From assembly GCF_000427095.1 (NCBI RefSeq), contig NC_021487.1, forward strand, positions 2,713,241-2,777,240: a stretch of 64,000 bases of DNA, written 5' to 3'. A program made the position numbers and the translations under genes. The notes beneath the pieces were generated by a model. The model was not told the origin of the DNA. It ran no database searches and was given only the letters and a program-made list of their open reading frames with translations. Of the stretch, positions 35,167 through 42,117 are shown in pieces; within the stretch, counting starts at the first letter, position 1; each line of letters opens with the position of its first letter. The DNA comes from Chthonomonas calidirosea T49 (GTDB lineage Bacteria > Armatimonadota > Chthonomonadetes > Chthonomonadales > Chthonomonadaceae).

Positions 35167-36489
35167 TTATGACTCGGCCTCCGTGGAGTCGGTCAGGGCA
35201 GGGGTTGGCAAGCGAGGTCGCCTCTCCGGCGGCAAGAGGCGTTCGAGGGTGTCGTCTACCGTGATAATGCCTAAAAGCCGCTCCTCTTCGTCCACCACCG
35301 GAACGGCAAGTAGGTTATAACGCCCTAGGATCTGGGCGACCTCATCGGCGTGGTCTTCCACATGCACGCGGATGACGTTCGGCTCCATGATCTCAGAGAC
35401 GGGCGTTTCCGGAGGGGCAATCACCAGATCGCGGAGCGAGAGAACGCCCACGAGGCGGTTTTCTGCGTCCACAACATAGATGTAGTAGATGGTTTCGGCT
35501 TTAGGGGCTAGTTCTCGCAGATATTGAATGGTCTGTTCGCAGGTGAGGTAGGAGTGTATCGCGACGAACTCGGTGGTCATCAGGCCACCGGCGGTATCGT
35601 CATCGTAGGCAAGGAGCTCTTTCACATCACGAGCTTCTTCCGGCTCCATCTGGTCTAGAAGCTCATCGCTGCGCGCTTCGGGCAGATCGCCAAGCACATC
35701 GGCGGCTTCGTCCGGCTCCATCTCTTCAAGGATGTCGGTCGCCTTTTCATCGTCGAGCTGTTGCATAATCTGCACCTGCACTTCTGGCTCTGCCTCAGCA
35801 ATGGCGTCGGCGGCCGTTTCGGTGTCGAGACTTTCGATCACCTCGGCGCCCTGTTGCGGCGTCAGTTGCTCCACAATGTCGGCGATGTCGGCTGGGTGAA
35901 GGCGCGCGATCTTATCATGAGAGACCTTCAGGCGAATGGTTCCTCCTTGTGCGCTTCTCTCCAGTGTCTGCACATCGTCCCAAGCGATAAGATTGGAGCG
36001 CAGCGGATGGCCGATCAGCCGGAAGAGCGCTTCGATAGGCACGCTAATAGCGCCGAGGCGCCTTAGCAGGGCGCGAAAACTGGCGTCCACGCCAACCACG
36101 CAGTACTCTGTCCCACAAACCGCCAATCGTACATCGCTAACGCGTACCACCCTGCGGTCGTGAATATCCACGATCTGCCGGTCAAGCACATCTCTACGCA
36201 GGTAGAGCACCTGCGACTCGTCGGGTTGATAGAGGGAGATGGTTTCTAGGGGGCGTCGAAGGTAGACATCTCCCAGAATACGACCGCTTCCTTGAGGTCC
36301 GGCAGGGTCTTCATTAAACAGGATCTCCGAGAAGGGAAGGGAGAGCTCATCGGACTTGCGTTTAATGAGAACTCCCCTCACAACCGGTAGTCGGCCTCCA
36401 AGTTCGGCGACGAGGTCGGTCACTCTACCGATGTAGGTTTTATCGGGAGTAAGCACACGCTTTCCTAAAAGCTGAGTAAGGTATTTCAT
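35167..36489 (-). CDS. Soluble MgtE-N/CBS protein with PRC-barrel N-terminus
   Basis: A 440-residue cytoplasmic protein. Two PRC-barrel-like segments (about 1-80 and 100-160: YIGRVTDLVAELGGRLPVV, IHDRRVVRVSDVRL) precede an MgtE intracellular domain (about 190-290: LHPADIADIVEQLTPQQ, EEMEPDEAADVLGDLPEA) and a CBS pair (about 300-415: GVLSLRDLVIAPPETPV, IMEPNVIRVHVEDHADE). The five-helix MgtE channel is absent, so it cannot transport magnesium itself. It could be a Mg2+-sensing regulator or partner of another transporter. Preceding gap 34957-35166 holds no gene. Confidence 0.85.
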   Translation of the reverse strand: MKYLTQLLGKRVLTPDKTYIGRVTDLVAELGGRLPVVRGVLIKRKSDELSLPFSEILFNEDPAGPQGSGRILGDVYLRRPLETISLYQPDESQVLYLRRDVLDRQIVDIHDRRVVRVSDVRLAVCGTEYCVVGVDASFRALLRRLGAISVPIEALFRLIGHPLRSNLIAWDDVQTLERSAQGGTIRLKVSHDKIARLHPADIADIVEQLTPQQGAEVIESLDTETAADAIAEAEPEVQVQIMQQLDDEKATDILEEMEPDEAADVLGDLPEARSDELLDQMEPEEARDVKELLAYDDDTAGGLMTTEFVAIHSYLTCEQTIQYLRELAPKAETIYYIYVVDAENRLVGVLSLRDLVIAPPETPVSEIMEPNVIRVHVEDHADEVAQILGRYNLLAVPVVDEEERLLGIITVDDTLERLLPPERRPRLPTPALTDSTEAES

Positions 36490-36506: not shown

Positions 36507-37658
36507 CTAGGGTGTCTGATGGGTTTTTATTGGGGGCACTGCAACCGAAATAGAGGTAGGAGCGACGCCGGCCGCCGCCTGAATACGCGCGATCTGCTCA
36601 GGGGTAACCTCCTTCTCAAAGGCGCGAAAACCAGCCAGACAAAAACCGTGCTTCGCTGCCAATTGACTGATCTCATCTACCTGCTTTACGCTTACCTCCT
36701 TGCCGAGCGTGAAGCTTTCATAACGCCCCTCAAGCGCGAGCATCATCGTTTCGGACATGCAGGCGTAGGCGGTATTGGGCGGAAAACCAAAGTCGAACTC
36801 TTCGTCGGGCCTGTTGGGATAGGGCAGATGCATTTCACCAGGCACCCGAACAACGCCCCCTTCGATCACCAGTACATCCTGCCGTTCCTTTGCAACGCGC
36901 ACGGAAACGTCACGAGGGCGAGACACATCGCAGACGACTGCACCGCGTTTAAGGTATTCCGGCAAAATAATGGCGTCCACGGCACTAGTAACCGTAATGA
37001 TCACATCGGCATCACGGAGGCCTGTAGCCACATCGGTAAAAAGACGCAACTCCGCTTGCGATTGGGATTTAAGGCGTTCGGCCAGCTGTTTCAGACGGGA
37101 GAGATCGCGCCCAACAAGGGCGACAGCCGGGGCTTCCCGGGACAATATCTCGGCGCATGTGGAACCGATGGAGCCGGTAGCTCCCACCACGGCCACCACC
37201 GAGTTTTCGATATGATGCCCCATGAGGCGAGCGGCCTCTTTAACGCCTTCAATAGCCGTTGCCACCGTGTAAGAGTTCCCTGTGGTGATGGCTAGATCGG
37301 GCAGTCGTTTGGCAAGGCTTATGCCGCCGTCTCCTACAACCGAAGTGAAGGCTCCAAGCCCCATAATGCCGGCGCCCAGATCGAGGGCAATACGGCCACA
37401 CTGTTCCAGCTTCTCGAGAACCTGCTCGTAGGGAAGCGTAACCATTTGATGCGGTGTAAGGGGGCAGCCGATAAACCAGCCCTCCAGCTCTTTCCCCGTT
37501 AGCGACCGCACGCCTTTCACTTCGCAGACCACCAGAGGGTTTTGGCGGGTCAAAAACCATTCAATGAGGCGCACTGGAAGGAAGCGCGCGATGGGATATT
37601 TTCGTGCCACATCGCGGCGGGCCTCAATAGGGTGAACAACAAAGGCAAAGCGTTCCAT
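36507..37658 (-). CDS. Long-chain acyl-ACP reductase-like protein (cyanobacterial AAR family)
   Basis: A 383-residue protein resembling the cyanobacterial enzyme that reduces fatty acyl-ACP to aldehyde. Shared traits: MGLGAFTSVVGDGG near residue 99, TTGNSYTVATAIEGVKEAA, the NADPH motif VVGATGSIGS (157-166) and, most telling, AYACMSETMMLALEGRYESF, where Cys300 aligns with the acyl-thioester cysteine of the cyanobacterial enzyme. It could make fatty aldehydes or act on another thioester. No aldehyde-deformylating oxygenase is in the window. It starts two bases after the partner gene at 37661-38593. Automatic labels such as shikimate or saccharopine dehydrogenase would be misleading. Confidence 0.75.
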   Translation of the reverse strand: MERFAFVVHPIEARRDVARKYPIARFLPVRLIEWFLTRQNPLVVCEVKGVRSLTGKELEGWFIGCPLTPHQMVTLPYEQVLEKLEQCGRIALDLGAGIMGLGAFTSVVGDGGISLAKRLPDLAITTGNSYTVATAIEGVKEAARLMGHHIENSVVAVVGATGSIGSTCAEILSREAPAVALVGRDLSRLKQLAERLKSQSQAELRLFTDVATGLRDADVIITVTSAVDAIILPEYLKRGAVVCDVSRPRDVSVRVAKERQDVLVIEGGVVRVPGEMHLPYPNRPDEEFDFGFPPNTAYACMSETMMLALEGRYESFTLGKEVSVKQVDEISQLAAKHGFCLAGFRAFEKEVTPEQIARIQAAAGVAPTSISVAVPPIKTHQTP

Positions 37659-37660
37659 AA

Positions 37661-38593
37661 TTACACGGTTTGAGCGCAGATCGCTGGTTGTGGGTTAAGC
37701 ACCTGCACGTTCGGCTTCCAATCTAGCTCCTTCAGTTTCTGCAGATAGTCCTGCGGGGTCAGCTCTTCAGGACGTTTCTGTAGTAAAGTTACGAGCACGG
37801 CCTCCATAACGTTCGTGCCAAAGGAGCGTCCGTCGAACACAGGGGTAGTGGTGATGAGCCTATGCACGCCTCTGCGTTTTAGTTCTTCTACATCGGCAGG
37901 GGTAGTGGTATTGGTGATCACTGTTTTACCAGAGAGTTGTTGCGGCATATATTTGCTGATGTAGAGATAATCGCCAGCGATGACATCGGCCTCTTGAAAA
38001 AACTTGGGAAATTTGGGCACATTCTGGTGCTGTTTTTCGCCGGTTGGGTAGAACCACTGGAAGGGACAGCGCACCACAATGGGAAGAATAAGGCGGGCGA
38101 GGCGTTGAAGGGTTGTCCAAGAGCGAATGGGGATAGGCAGTCCAAGTCCAAAAAGAATGTCGCCAAACACTATGGAACGCGCGCGTTGTACCAGCGCCTC
38201 GGCCATCCCAAAGCGGTCCACTGCGCTCATCAACAGAACCGAGCTTTCACAGAAATTCACCACCTTGTTTTCATCGAGCCAGGCGATGGTCTCTCGTTCA
38301 AGGGTATGCTTGAGGCCGCTGCCGTCCACGAAAGGTGTTTTTTGGGCACCGGCCATCAGCGAGAGCGGCTCGCGAAACACGTAGCGGCGATCGCCGGCGT
38401 AGAGATAGATGTCACACCCCCCTACACCAAAGGCGTCCACCTTGCCATCTAGCTCCTGCACAAGGCGACGAAAACGCTGCTTGTCGCCGTCGGTGCCGAT
38501 GCGCTCGATAGAAAACTCTTCTCCAAAAAACCGGGCGATCACTTTTTTATCGCGTCGTGAGGAGCCTAGACTAATGCTAACCACGCGTTTCAC
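37661..38593 (-). CDS. Uncharacterised partner of the AAR-like reductase ('quinate 5-dehydrogenase'-labelled family)
   Basis: A 310-residue protein starting at GTG (38593), N-terminus VVSISLGSSRRDKKV. Similar proteins in Thermus, Deinococcus and clostridia-like bacteria are often labelled quinate 5-dehydrogenase, but I see no quinate/shikimate dehydrogenase motif or classical Rossmann glycine loop. Conserved-looking parts are DAFGVGGCDIYLYAGDRRYV, VFGDILFGLGLPIP, DVIAGDYLYISKYMP and VITNTTTPADVEELKRRGV. Its stop is two bases from the reductase start, so the two are one transcriptional and probably functional unit. Function unknown. Confidence 0.75.
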   Translation of the reverse strand: MKRVVSISLGSSRRDKKVIARFFGEEFSIERIGTDGDKQRFRRLVQELDGKVDAFGVGGCDIYLYAGDRRYVFREPLSLMAGAQKTPFVDGSGLKHTLERETIAWLDENKVVNFCESSVLLMSAVDRFGMAEALVQRARSIVFGDILFGLGLPIPIRSWTTLQRLARLILPIVVRCPFQWFYPTGEKQHQNVPKFPKFFQEADVIAGDYLYISKYMPQQLSGKTVITNTTTPADVEELKRRGVHRLITTTPVFDGRSFGTNVMEAVLVTLLQKRPEELTPQDYLQKLKELDWKPNVQVLNPQPAICAQTV

Positions 38594-38617: not shown

Positions 38618-39139
38618 TTAGTAAGCACGAACACGGTTATGCGCTCCAACAATGCTGAGGGCTATTTGTAACCACAGCATCAGGTCTAGTAAAGCCCCGA
38701 GATGGCCTCCGGACAGGTAGAGCGCCATGCCGATCAGCCCTAAGGCTGCTGCCAACCAAGCCAGTTGCTCCACCTGAGTACCGCGTTTAAATCGGGTCAC
38801 TTGGCGCACCGTTTCTCCCACCAGCATCCCGTGAAAAAAGGCCAAGAAAATGGCAAAAAAGCCGAGATGCACGCTGCTGAGCACCCCTTCGGCGAGCAAA
38901 AGAAGCCATGCTGCCACGTAGCTAACCACGGTTCCGACGACGAGCGTCAAGAGGAGCTCTTGGGGTTGCAGTTGTAGACGGGCGGCGCGATCGGGCTTTG
39001 CACACTGTTTGCAGAGCATGCCGGCGGGGTAGACCACGGAGCAGTGAGGGCATATGGGCACACCGCAGCGCGCACACCGCAGGGAGGTTATCTCATGACG
39101 CCGGCAGTGACACCGTAGCGGCGTGGAGGCATCGGGCAC
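38618..39139 (-). CDS. Zinc-ribbon/B-box membrane protein
   Basis: A 173-residue protein. The N-terminal 50 residues carry a dense Cys/His set (RCHCRRHEITSLRCARC, VPICPHCSVVYPAGMLCKQC) like a B-box zinc finger. Four hydrophobic segments follow (about 62-82, 88-108, 125-145, 148-165). Proteins of this shape are common and uncharacterised. The start is GTG, which lies three bases after the stop of the SLH gene, so it belongs to the same transcript. Confidence 0.7.
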   Translation of the reverse strand: MPDASTPLRCHCRRHEITSLRCARCGVPICPHCSVVYPAGMLCKQCAKPDRAARLQLQPQELLLTLVVGTVVSYVAAWLLLLAEGVLSSVHLGFFAIFLAFFHGMLVGETVRQVTRFKRGTQVEQLAWLAAALGLIGMALYLSGGHLGALLDLMLWLQIALSIVGAHNRVRAY

Positions 39140-39142
39140 CTC

Positions 39143-39814
39143 TCAGTGCCCTCCTTTGGGTTTATGAAAGCTGGCGTCGGGCGTGTTGCCTTGGGCGTCG
39201 TGGCCGAGGGAGGTTAGCTGGTCGTTTAGCCCGGCAACCATCTGGGCGACGGCCACACTAAGCTGCGCTGCCGTCAGGGGGGTATGATCTGCTTTAAGAA
39301 GAGGGGAGTCGGGGCCGATCTCACGATGCTGTACCAGATACTGCAAAGAGGTGTAGGCTGGATTGGTAGGAGGCACAGCGATGGTCACATGCGTTGGAAG
39401 CACTTCCGACTTTGCTTTATCTGGCGCATTCGCCGGCGCACGCGTAATGCCATTGGCCACATAGTTTCCGACGCGGCAAAGCACCGAGGCCAGGATATAG
39501 CGTGTAACGGGGCGGTTCTGCCAGCGGCGCGCTTTCAGTGTCTGCGCAACGCTTTCTGGCACCGGTTTACTAGGGGCGGCGTGCCAGGTGTTCTCTTGAA
39601 GCGCCTTTGCCAATCGGGCAAGGGCGATGGCGGCGTCTATCCGCGTGATCTTCTGTTCGCCATGGAAGCGCCCATCCGATTCAAGCGAGAGCAGATGGTT
39701 TTGCAACGCTTGTTGCACATAGGCTGCCGCCCAATGGTTGGGGCGGACGTCGGGCGGCAAGCAAAGAGCGGGTACTGCACAGAGGAGAAGTACAAGAAGC
39801 CAGAGTCGTTTCAT
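39143..39814 (-). CDS. Secreted SLH-domain protein
   Basis: A 223-residue exported protein with a signal peptide to about residue 18. One clear S-layer-homology motif follows: DVRPNHWAAAYVQQALQNHL, then ITRIDAAIALARLAKAL. Degenerate SLH-like segments follow to about residue 200 (VTRYILASVLCRVGNYV; LTAAQLSVAVAQMVAGL). It probably binds the cell wall or its secondary polymers. It lies just downstream of mreB and murA, which suggests a role in envelope assembly. Confidence 0.75.
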   Translation of the reverse strand: MKRLWLLVLLLCAVPALCLPPDVRPNHWAAAYVQQALQNHLLSLESDGRFHGEQKITRIDAAIALARLAKALQENTWHAAPSKPVPESVAQTLKARRWQNRPVTRYILASVLCRVGNYVANGITRAPANAPDKAKSEVLPTHVTIAVPPTNPAYTSLQYLVQHREIGPDSPLLKADHTPLTAAQLSVAVAQMVAGLNDQLTSLGHDAQGNTPDASFHKPKGGH

Positions 39815-39833: not shown

Positions 39834-40841
39834 TCAGGCGCTGCGGCGAATGGCCGCCATATTTTCTAAGGCCCTTCCGGTTCCGATGACAACGCAGGTA
39901 AGGGGGTCTTCGGCAACGCGAACAGGCAGGCCCGTGACGGAGGAGATAAGTTGATCAAGGCCCCGAAGCAGGGCTCCTCCTCCGGTAAGCATGATACCGC
40001 GTTCGATGATATCGGCAGAAAGCTCCGGCGGTGTTTTTTCCAAAACACGTTTGACCTTTTCTACGATGGCGCTAACGGGCTCGGAAAGGGCCTCCCGAAT
40101 CTCTTCGGAGGTAACCTGAATCGTTTTCGGCAGTCCGGCCACCAGGTCACGGCCGCGTACTTCCATGGTAAGCTCTTGTTGAAGTGGGTAGGCCGAGCCG
40201 ATCCGCATTTTAATCTCTTCTGCGGTACGTTCGCCGATCATGAGGTTGTAGACGTTGCGGATGTAACGCATAATCACCTCATCCATACGATTTCCGGCGA
40301 TACGCAGGCTTTCGCTATGGACGATGCTGCCAAGGGAGATGACGGCCACATCGGTCGTTCCACCACCGATATCCACCACCATGTTGCCGCCAGGGGAGGA
40401 GATGGGTAGACCGGCACCGATGGCAGCTGCCATGGGCTCTTCAATGGGGTAGGCTTCACGGGCGCCAGCCTCTTCTGCGGCCTGGAGCACCGCGCGCTTC
40501 TCTACACTGGTTACTTGAGAGGGCACGCAGATAAGCACACGTGGGCGAAAGTTAAGCAGCCAACGTTTCCCGAGCACGCGATCAAAGATGTAGCGAAGCA
40601 TGGCCTGAGTGATGGTATAGTCGGCAATAACGCCGTCGCTCATAGGGCGGATCGGCACGATGTTGCCGGGCGTGCGTCCTAGCATTTCGCTAGCCTCGGA
40701 GCCCACCGCCAACACCTTGCGGTTTTGGGCGGAAACGGCCACCACCGAGGGCTCTCGCAACACGATGCCCTTTCCCTTCTGATAGACCAGCGTATTGGCG
40801 GTGCCCAAGTCAATTCCGAGCATAGGAAACAGGTTAAACAC
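39834..40841 (-). CDS. mreB: Cell-shape actin homologue MreB
   Basis: A 335-residue actin-like protein organising sidewall peptidoglycan synthesis. Motifs: phosphate-1 [13 protein letters not shown], connect-1 [13 protein letters not shown], phosphate-2 [17 protein letters not shown] and adenosine motif [17 protein letters not shown] place the start at the GTG at 40841: GGAG lies eight bases upstream and the resulting N-terminus ([13 protein letters not shown]) supplies the short amphipathic membrane segment usual in MreB. This start overlaps the end of murA by eight bases. In-frame ATG at 40823 is the alternative. Confidence 0.95.
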
Positions 40842-42117
40842 TCTCGTAACTCCGCGCTTGTTCTTCGGGGACTCGCGCGATGTCGGCGCCAAGCCCCCTT
40901 AGATTTTCTACAAGGTTCTCATAGCCCCTGTCAAGATGTTCGAGTTCGGAGACCACGGTAACGCCCTGCGCCACAAGCCCAGCGATCACCAAGGCGGCGC
41001 CGCCGCGCAGGTCGGTGCAGCTCACGGGCGCCCCATTTAGCTGAGGAACCCCCGTAACGATGGCAGTTGGGCCTTCCACACGGATGTCGGCCCCCATGCG
41101 CTGCAGCTCGGTGGTGTAGCGGAAGCGGCTTTCGTAGACCGTTTCGGTGATGACGGAGACCCCATCGGCGATGGTAAGAAGAGCTACGAAGGGTTGTTGC
41201 ATGTCGGTGGGAAAGCCTGGGTGGGGCATGGTTTTTATGTCGGTAGGGTGGATTTTGCCTACTCGTCGCACGCGCATTCCTCCATCAATGGGGGTTACTT
41301 CGGCGCCGGCCTCCATCAACTTGTTTAATACGGCGCGGCAGTGGTCTGGCACGGCATTACGTATATACACATCGCCGCCTGTAGCTGCCGCCGCGATCGC
41401 ATAGGTTCCAGCTTGGAGCCTGTCGGGAATAATGGAGAACTCGGTAGGATAGAGGCGATCGACGCCCTCAATGACGATGGTCGAGGTGCCCATTCCGCTG
41501 ATCTTGGCGCCGCAGGCGTTAAGAAACTCGGCGAGGTTCACCACCTCTGGCTCTTGAGCGCAGTTTTGGATAACGGTGCGGCCCTGCGCGCAGCAAGCGG
41601 CCATCATGAGATGCTGTGTGGCACCGGCAGAAGGAAATTCCAGGTAGAGATTTGTGCCCACAAGACGCCGACACGTTCCCACGTAAATGCCGTGTTCTAA
41701 GGTAAGGCGGGCGCCCAACTGCTCGAGCCCCTTAATATGGAAATTCACCGGCCTCGCCCCAATGTTGCAGCCACCAGGCATCGCCACCGCGGCCTCTTGA
41801 AACCGCGTAAGAAGCACGCCCAACAGGTTGAAGGAGGCACGCATTTGACGCACCAGCTCGTGAGGGGCTTGGGAGGTGGTGAGTTGCGTGGCGTCTATTT
41901 CCAGCGTGTTGTCGGGTAGAAAATCAGCCTTAGCCCCAAGATGCCGAAGAATTTCGAGCATCTTATCTACATCCGTGATGCGAGGGACGTTTCTCAGGCG
42001 GGTTTTGCCTGGCACCAGCAACGCCGCAGGGATGATGGCCAGCGCATCATTTTTACTGCCGCCGATGTATACCTCACCTGATAGGGGGGAACCGCCCCGG
42101 ATAACTAGCTTTTCCAC
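40834..42117 (-). CDS. murA: UDP-N-acetylglucosamine 1-carboxyvinyltransferase
   Basis: A 427-residue enolpyruvyl transferase catalysing the first committed step of peptidoglycan synthesis (PEP plus UDP-GlcNAc). Catalytic Cys117 is in [20 protein letters not shown], the fosfomycin-sensitive form. Other family segments: [31 protein letters not shown] and [20 protein letters not shown]. Start is GTG with AGAGAGG upstream. It overlaps mreB, tying wall precursor synthesis to shape control. Confidence 0.96.

Follow-up and report, generated by a model that had tools for sequence, protein, structure and literature searches.

Two adjoining genes in the 64,000-nucleotide stretch of Chthonomonas calidirosea T49 DNA analysed here (the window) raise the question as to what a reductase resembling cyanobacterial acyl-ACP reductase (AAR) does in an organism whose relatives are the Chthonomonadales and Armatimonadota, and what is contributed by its neighbour, a member of the SLGSSRRD family. 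The original prediction, which had correctly placed the organism outside the cyanobacteria, proposed a two-protein pathway making or handling fatty aldehydes or another acyl thioester product. Both open reading frames were confirmed (Table 1) in a genome that consists of one 3.44-Mb contig.

As predicted, the stop codon of the partner gene and the start ATG of its neighbour are two bases apart (junction GTG TAA TT ATG GAA). The pair belongs to a one-strand run, murA-mreB-SLH protein-173-aa protein-partner-reductase-CBS protein, in which the gaps measure 2-24 bases and murA and mreB overlap by 59 bases. Given these small gaps, the common strand and a 210-base gap that follows the run, the genes from murA to the CBS protein are likely to form a single transcript. 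In related genomes, a gene similar in size to that of the 173-aa protein occupies the same place (cluster c35), as does an SLH gene (cluster c34). The protein downstream of the reductase is MgtE-like, with weak PRC-barrel, MgtE-N and CBS domains; since no membrane transporter domain was matched, it is perhaps a soluble magnesium sensor.

Table 1. Features of the reductase-partner locus, in window positions.
Feature	Position	Strand	Remarks
MgtE-N/CBS/PRC-barrel protein, downstream	35167..36489	-	17-base gap after reductase
AAR-like acyl-thioester reductase, 383 aa	36507..37658	-	AAR fold Z 34.3; PigE profile 188 bits; TIGR04058 105 bits
Reductase Cys300 codon, predicted acyl-accepting	36759..36761	-	Invariant in 28 sequences; aligns with C294 of cyanobacterial AAR
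Reductase dinucleotide loop GATGSIG, residues 159-165	37164..37184	-	Equivalent to GATGDIG 162-168 of AAR (PMC7089970)
SLGSSRRD partner, 310 aa, GTG start	37661..38593	-	No Pfam/NCBIfam family; predicted fold nearest AAR, Z 13.3
Partner Asn261 codon, topological equivalent of Cys300	37811..37813	-	Invariant in 144 sequences; first turn of helix 260-271
Partner Asp126-Arg127, replacing the dinucleotide loop	38213..38218	-	Invariant in 144 sequences; after strand 118-121
Cysteine-rich/membrane protein, 173 aa, upstream, same gene run	38618..39139	-	24-base gap
S-layer-homology (SLH) domain protein	39143..39814	-	PF00395, 25 bits
mreB	39834..40892	-	Context gene
murA	40834..42117	-	Context gene

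The reductase contains YACMSETMMLALEG, the cysteine of which is residue 300. Neither this cysteine nor the G159xxG162xxG165 positions of the GATGSIG loop vary among 28 diverse orthologues taken from Armatimonadota, Bacillota and Actinomycetota, which bears out the thioester cysteine context and NADPH motif that had been proposed. Across 111 reductase domains, the Cys300 position is conserved in 108 and the glycine-loop positions in 107-111. In cyanobacterial AAR, C294 is the acyl-carrying residue and the loop is the NADPH-binding site (PMC7089970); furthermore, the basic residues R184 and R188 of the reductase correspond to R189 and R193 of AAR, which lie at the NADPH phosphate. Pfam recognises only the Rossmann part (PF01488, about 53 bits, residues 144-257). 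Among NCBIfam models, the PigE equivalog is matched by its reductase part alone (188 bits versus a score of over 850), with no fused aminotransferase, and the AAR model TIGR04058 yields 105.6 bits against a cut-off of 449.7, so that equivalog level is not reached. The best PDB sequence matches are the PigE-type aminotransferase 4ppm and the AAR of S. elongatus.

An AlphaFold2 model of the reductase (pLDDT 90.5) displays the three-domain AAR fold, matching AAR (PDB 6JZQ) with a Z-score of 34.3 (2.9 Å over 326 residues) and the carmabin TAD thioester-reductase domain with 33.9, whereas every other fold scores 13.7 or less. The likeness to AAR in fold, catalytic cysteine and GATGxIG loop is set against a sequence identity of 26%, a genome lacking aldehyde-deformylating oxygenase (ADO) and the pairing with an SLGSSRRD gene. 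A tree built from 54 reductase domains places PigE and cyanobacterial AAR each on a long branch of its own, which indicates a sister group and not AAR proper; the cyanobacterial row comprises the 326 residues taken from the PDB alignment, and its branch is so long that its position is unsure. TamH and PigE share the domain family, the cysteine and the cofactor loop, and Bacillota relatives exhibit the aminotransferase-reductase order of TamH; the window reductase differs in standing alone beside its partner, with no tambjamine or prodiginine genes nearby. Its assignment as a non-cyanobacterial AAR-type acyl-thioester reductase, as judged from sequence and predicted structure, is thus well supported.

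In some Bacillota, the reductase gene beside the partner lacks the cysteine, with Ser or Trp in its place, and is still open (L164:3304-4392, L166:5721-6836, L168:2540-3655). Two of these three genomes have further reductase-domain matches elsewhere, and a turn to a non-catalytic role is possible for the cysteine-less proteins.

The partner matches no Pfam or NCBIfam model, and sequence searches of the PDB returned only chance matches (chaperonins, diguanylate cyclase). Comparison of its predicted structure (pLDDT 91.8) with the PDB by VIA gives AAR as the best match, with a Z-score of 13.3 over 248 residues, followed by carmabin TAD at 12.7 and glutamate dehydrogenases at 10.4 or below; in Foldseek, the AAR chains (E 1.6e-5) equal sugar-binding proteins. 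Periplasmic sugar-binding proteins and dehydrogenases are also listed by both programs, with lower Z, and a general two-lobed form hence accounts for part of the match. The quinate dehydrogenase label that databases attach to this family was already doubted, rightly so in view of the missing profile match and of a predicted fold that is closest to AAR, a resemblance newly seen here.

The order of structural elements agrees between the partner and reductase models, which were compared by eye without a computed superposition. The pairs read in this way (partner/reductase) are hairpin 16-33/42-64, helix 38-48/77-93, strand 54-58/98-100, helix 92-108/128-145, strand 118-121/154-158, helix 128-137/163-173, strand 204-206/219-222, strand 224-227/241-244, strand 245-248/263-265 and helix 260-271/299-309. 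The last helix, read in the same way, starts with N261-x-x-E264 in the partner and with C300-x-x-E303 in the reductase, so that the partner has Asn261 instead of the catalytic cysteine, just as it has D126-R127 instead of the glycine-rich loop. All 144 partner sequences share D126, R127, D145, D208 and N261, and such conservation of charged residues argues for a functional site rather than a decayed one. Profile comparison by hhalign revealed no kinship between the two families (probability 0.1-0.3%, with 25/28 and with 144/111 sequences); the argument for a possible shared origin is therefore the fold itself.

A survey of gene-pair conservation, which had been suggested as a check, found the pair to be conserved in Armatimonadota, Bacillota and some Actinomycetota. 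Each gene occurs in 143 of 151 Armatimonadota genomes; among the 116 good ones the count for each is 114, far more than chance would give. Where both are present (136 genomes), they lie side by side, in this order and on one strand, in 75, within 5 kb in 12 more, far apart on one contig in two and on different contigs in 47. In the Bacillota phylum of Thermoanaerobacter (249 genomes), the partner was found in 186 and the reductase domain in 162: 157 genomes have both, at most 29 the partner alone, five the reductase alone and 58 neither (Fisher p 1e-28, not corrected for relatedness). The figure of 29 is an upper one, since at least two of these genomes (L222, L225) turned out to contain a reductase or part of a reductase. 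Among the carriers of the partner are Thermoanaerobacter, Moorella, Sporomusa, Carboxydothermus, Caloramator and Desulfovirgula, and the pair is present in Moorella sulfitireducens. The partner was also found in 24 of 198 Actinomycetota genomes; none was found on plasmids. Literature searches for the pair, or for a 'quinate 5-dehydrogenase' beside an acyl-ACP reductase, returned nothing relevant.

Some individual loci depart from this pattern. An Actinomycetes MAG carries two tandem partner genes upstream of the reductase (L143:6964-8912, G156:C21:17991-19840), and a record titled Methanoregulaceae archaeon (L087) holds an Armatimonadota-type partner gene (57% identity), probably on a misbinned contig. 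At 26 Bacillota loci, the partner lies directly behind a conserved helix-turn-helix protein, and it is kept there when the reductase is missing. That protein, of ~180 aa and found in Bacillota and some Actinomycetota (L149:7448-7996, L140:7465-7986, L230:3890-4426 and others), combines the helix-turn-helix with a second domain bearing an AVVGFPI motif, and is probably a regulator of the partner operon.

In six Armatimonadota genomes from three families (five scanned as fusions, the sixth recovered by a PlsY search), the reductase is fused to PlsY, the glycerol-3-phosphate acyltransferase, and this fusion is both the only PlsY and the only reductase of the genome, which places the reductase close to core membrane-lipid synthesis. 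The partner is kept in five of the six; the sixth genome is 69% complete. A seventh such fusion was found in a Bacillota genome (L161), and all seven form one clade (100/100) in which the cysteine is retained. The genome studied here encodes PlsY as a separate gene (G000:C1:742590-743117). Taken by itself, the PlsY fusion gives no pointer to amines in particular.

Such a pointer comes from class-III aminotransferases. Fusions of these enzymes with the reductase, 850-1450 aa in length, occur in Bacillota, once adjoining the partner (L139), and 13 of 16 AAR-like matches on plasmids lie within genes annotated as class-III aminotransferase. Three of the fusions (L156:4014-6641, L157:6187-8913, L163:2294-6640) have ~40-100 extra residues in the reductase Rossmann domain, and that of L163 is extended at the N-terminus by another 480 residues that have no Pfam match. 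In Ca. Oleimmundimicrobium, the partner and reductase genes are separated by an aminotransferase gene and a START-like gene; this aminotransferase groups with ten from Armatimonadota, that of the genome studied included (98/91), but it resembles putrescine aminotransferase, an enzyme that would be common anyway. Moorella, Thermoanaerobacter, Desulfovirgula and Carboxydothermus have stand-alone aminotransferases that cluster with the fused enzymes (100/98). No positional link to the pair was found for the Armatimonadota aminotransferases, and that of the genome studied, encoded at G000:C1:1675052-1676368, is likewise not clustered with it. Other insertions involve an SCP2-like lipid-carrier gene and an amino-acid permease gene, which separate partner and reductase in close relatives (L044:9232-10973, L064:2388-4129) and lie behind the partner, without an adjacent reductase, in Desulfovirgula (L144:8933-10634).

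These data bear directly on the proposed two-protein pathway. The AAR-type reductase and the conserved pair stand, as does the expectation that the cysteine would be present and the protein not of shikimate type. However, the genes are often unlinked (47 of 136), the partner occurs without the reductase (at most 29 of 186 Bacillota carriers), and aminotransferases and PlsY are found fused to the reductase or next to it, so that a closed pathway of two proteins is unlikely. The fusions and adjacencies imply at least a third component beyond partner and reductase.

By analogy with AAR and with TamH and PigE, we infer that the reductase would convert an acyl thioester to an aldehyde. An acyl carrier (acyl-ACP, or perhaps acyl-CoA or the acyl-phosphate substrate of PlsY) would deliver its acyl group onto Cys300, and a nicotinamide (NAD(P)H) held at the GATGSIG loop would reduce the Cys-acyl intermediate to a long-chain aldehyde. 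In TamH, an aminotransferase is fused to a reductase, and the enzyme converts acyl-ACP to fatty amines (PMC9594044); PMC8341465 likewise belongs to the AAR, TamH and PigE literature on which this scheme draws. In view of the fusions, the aldehyde is likely to feed membrane lipids, as a precursor of these rather than of alkanes. A class-III aminotransferase, encoded elsewhere in Armatimonadota, would most likely act next and turn the aldehyde into an alkylamine destined for lipids of the N-glyceroyl alkylamine type. The alkylamine is hypothetical as a product, and the aminotransferase-III fusions, the plasmid matches and the Oleimmundimicrobium insertion are what suggest it. N-glyceroyl alkylamine phosphoglycolipids, found in Deinococcota and Bacillota, would need exactly this conversion of acyl thioester to aldehyde to amine, and the lineages overlap: Deinococcota lipids contain a long alkylamine amide-linked to glyceric acid (PMC3398001), and PMC13274423, which cites Bale et al. 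2025, ascribes N-glyceroyl alkylamines to Moorella thermoacetica. Among 14 control genomes, the AAR profile matched only Synechococcus, Thermus composti and Deinobacterium chartae, of which the last two are Deinococcota. The ligand of the partner is most likely an acyl or aldehyde compound of the sort handled by the reductase. The partner would act beside that enzyme, where it may either pass on substrate or product or catalyse an adjoining step.

The PlsY-reductase fusions that serve as sole PlsY would also suit a reductase whose aldehyde or alcohol product goes into glycerol ether lipids, beside PlsY and independently of PlsA/Ger. PlsA/Ger-type DUF2229 is absent from the genome studied and from eight more of the twelve Armatimonadota tested, and a separate ether route would thus be needed if ethers exist; the aminotransferase fusions, however, point elsewhere, and we consider this explanation unlikely. 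We would also give little credence to a role in acyl-carrier overflow or homeostasis, in which the reductase would act as a drain for acyl-ACP or acyl-phosphate, and the partner would be no enzyme but a ligand-binding regulator of lipid synthesis. The helix-turn-helix protein directly ahead of the partner in Bacillota, also at loci without the reductase, would agree with regulation, yet Armatimonadota keep the partner near-universally without that regulator adjoining, and the invariant Asp126, Arg127, Asp145, Asp208 and Asn261 resemble an active site.

Alkane synthesis in the cyanobacterial style, for which the AAR-like fold and cysteine of the reductase might be cited, is very improbable and already contradicted by profile searches: ADO (PF11266), noted in the original prediction to be missing from the vicinity, is absent from the whole source genome and from eight others. 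That the proteins are quinate/shikimate or amino-acid dehydrogenases, as automatic labels have it, is hardly credible. The Rossmann match to PF01488 is what such labels have in their favour; the AroE profile scores 24.7 bits on the reductase against a cut-off of 200.2, shikimate dehydrogenases reach a fold Z-score of about 13 as compared to 34 for AAR, and the partner has no such profile match. A shikimate dehydrogenase identity was accordingly rejected for the reductase.

Hence, the reading that we prefer is that of an AAR-kind reductase which would supply aldehyde for membrane lipids, likeliest via an alkylamine, with the partner assisting, and we put its chances at about even. A bolder version, in which the pair and a class-III aminotransferase constitute the missing route to the long-chain amines of N-glyceroyl alkylamines throughout the phylum and the partner is a new enzyme of acyl-reductase fold with Asn for the catalytic Cys, is tentative and on balance doubtful. 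To our knowledge, N-glyceroyl alkylamine lipids have not been reported from Armatimonadota. If the product is indeed an alkylamine, these genes would be candidates for the synthesis of lipids that were described from Deinococcus in 1985-1991 and recently from Bacillota as well, and such lipids would be predicted in Armatimonadota. One member of the pair lacks a family in Pfam or NCBIfam, yet the pair is kept in 98% of the good Armatimonadota genomes and in about 63% of those sampled from the Bacillota phylum, and a pair so broadly retained should do something central.
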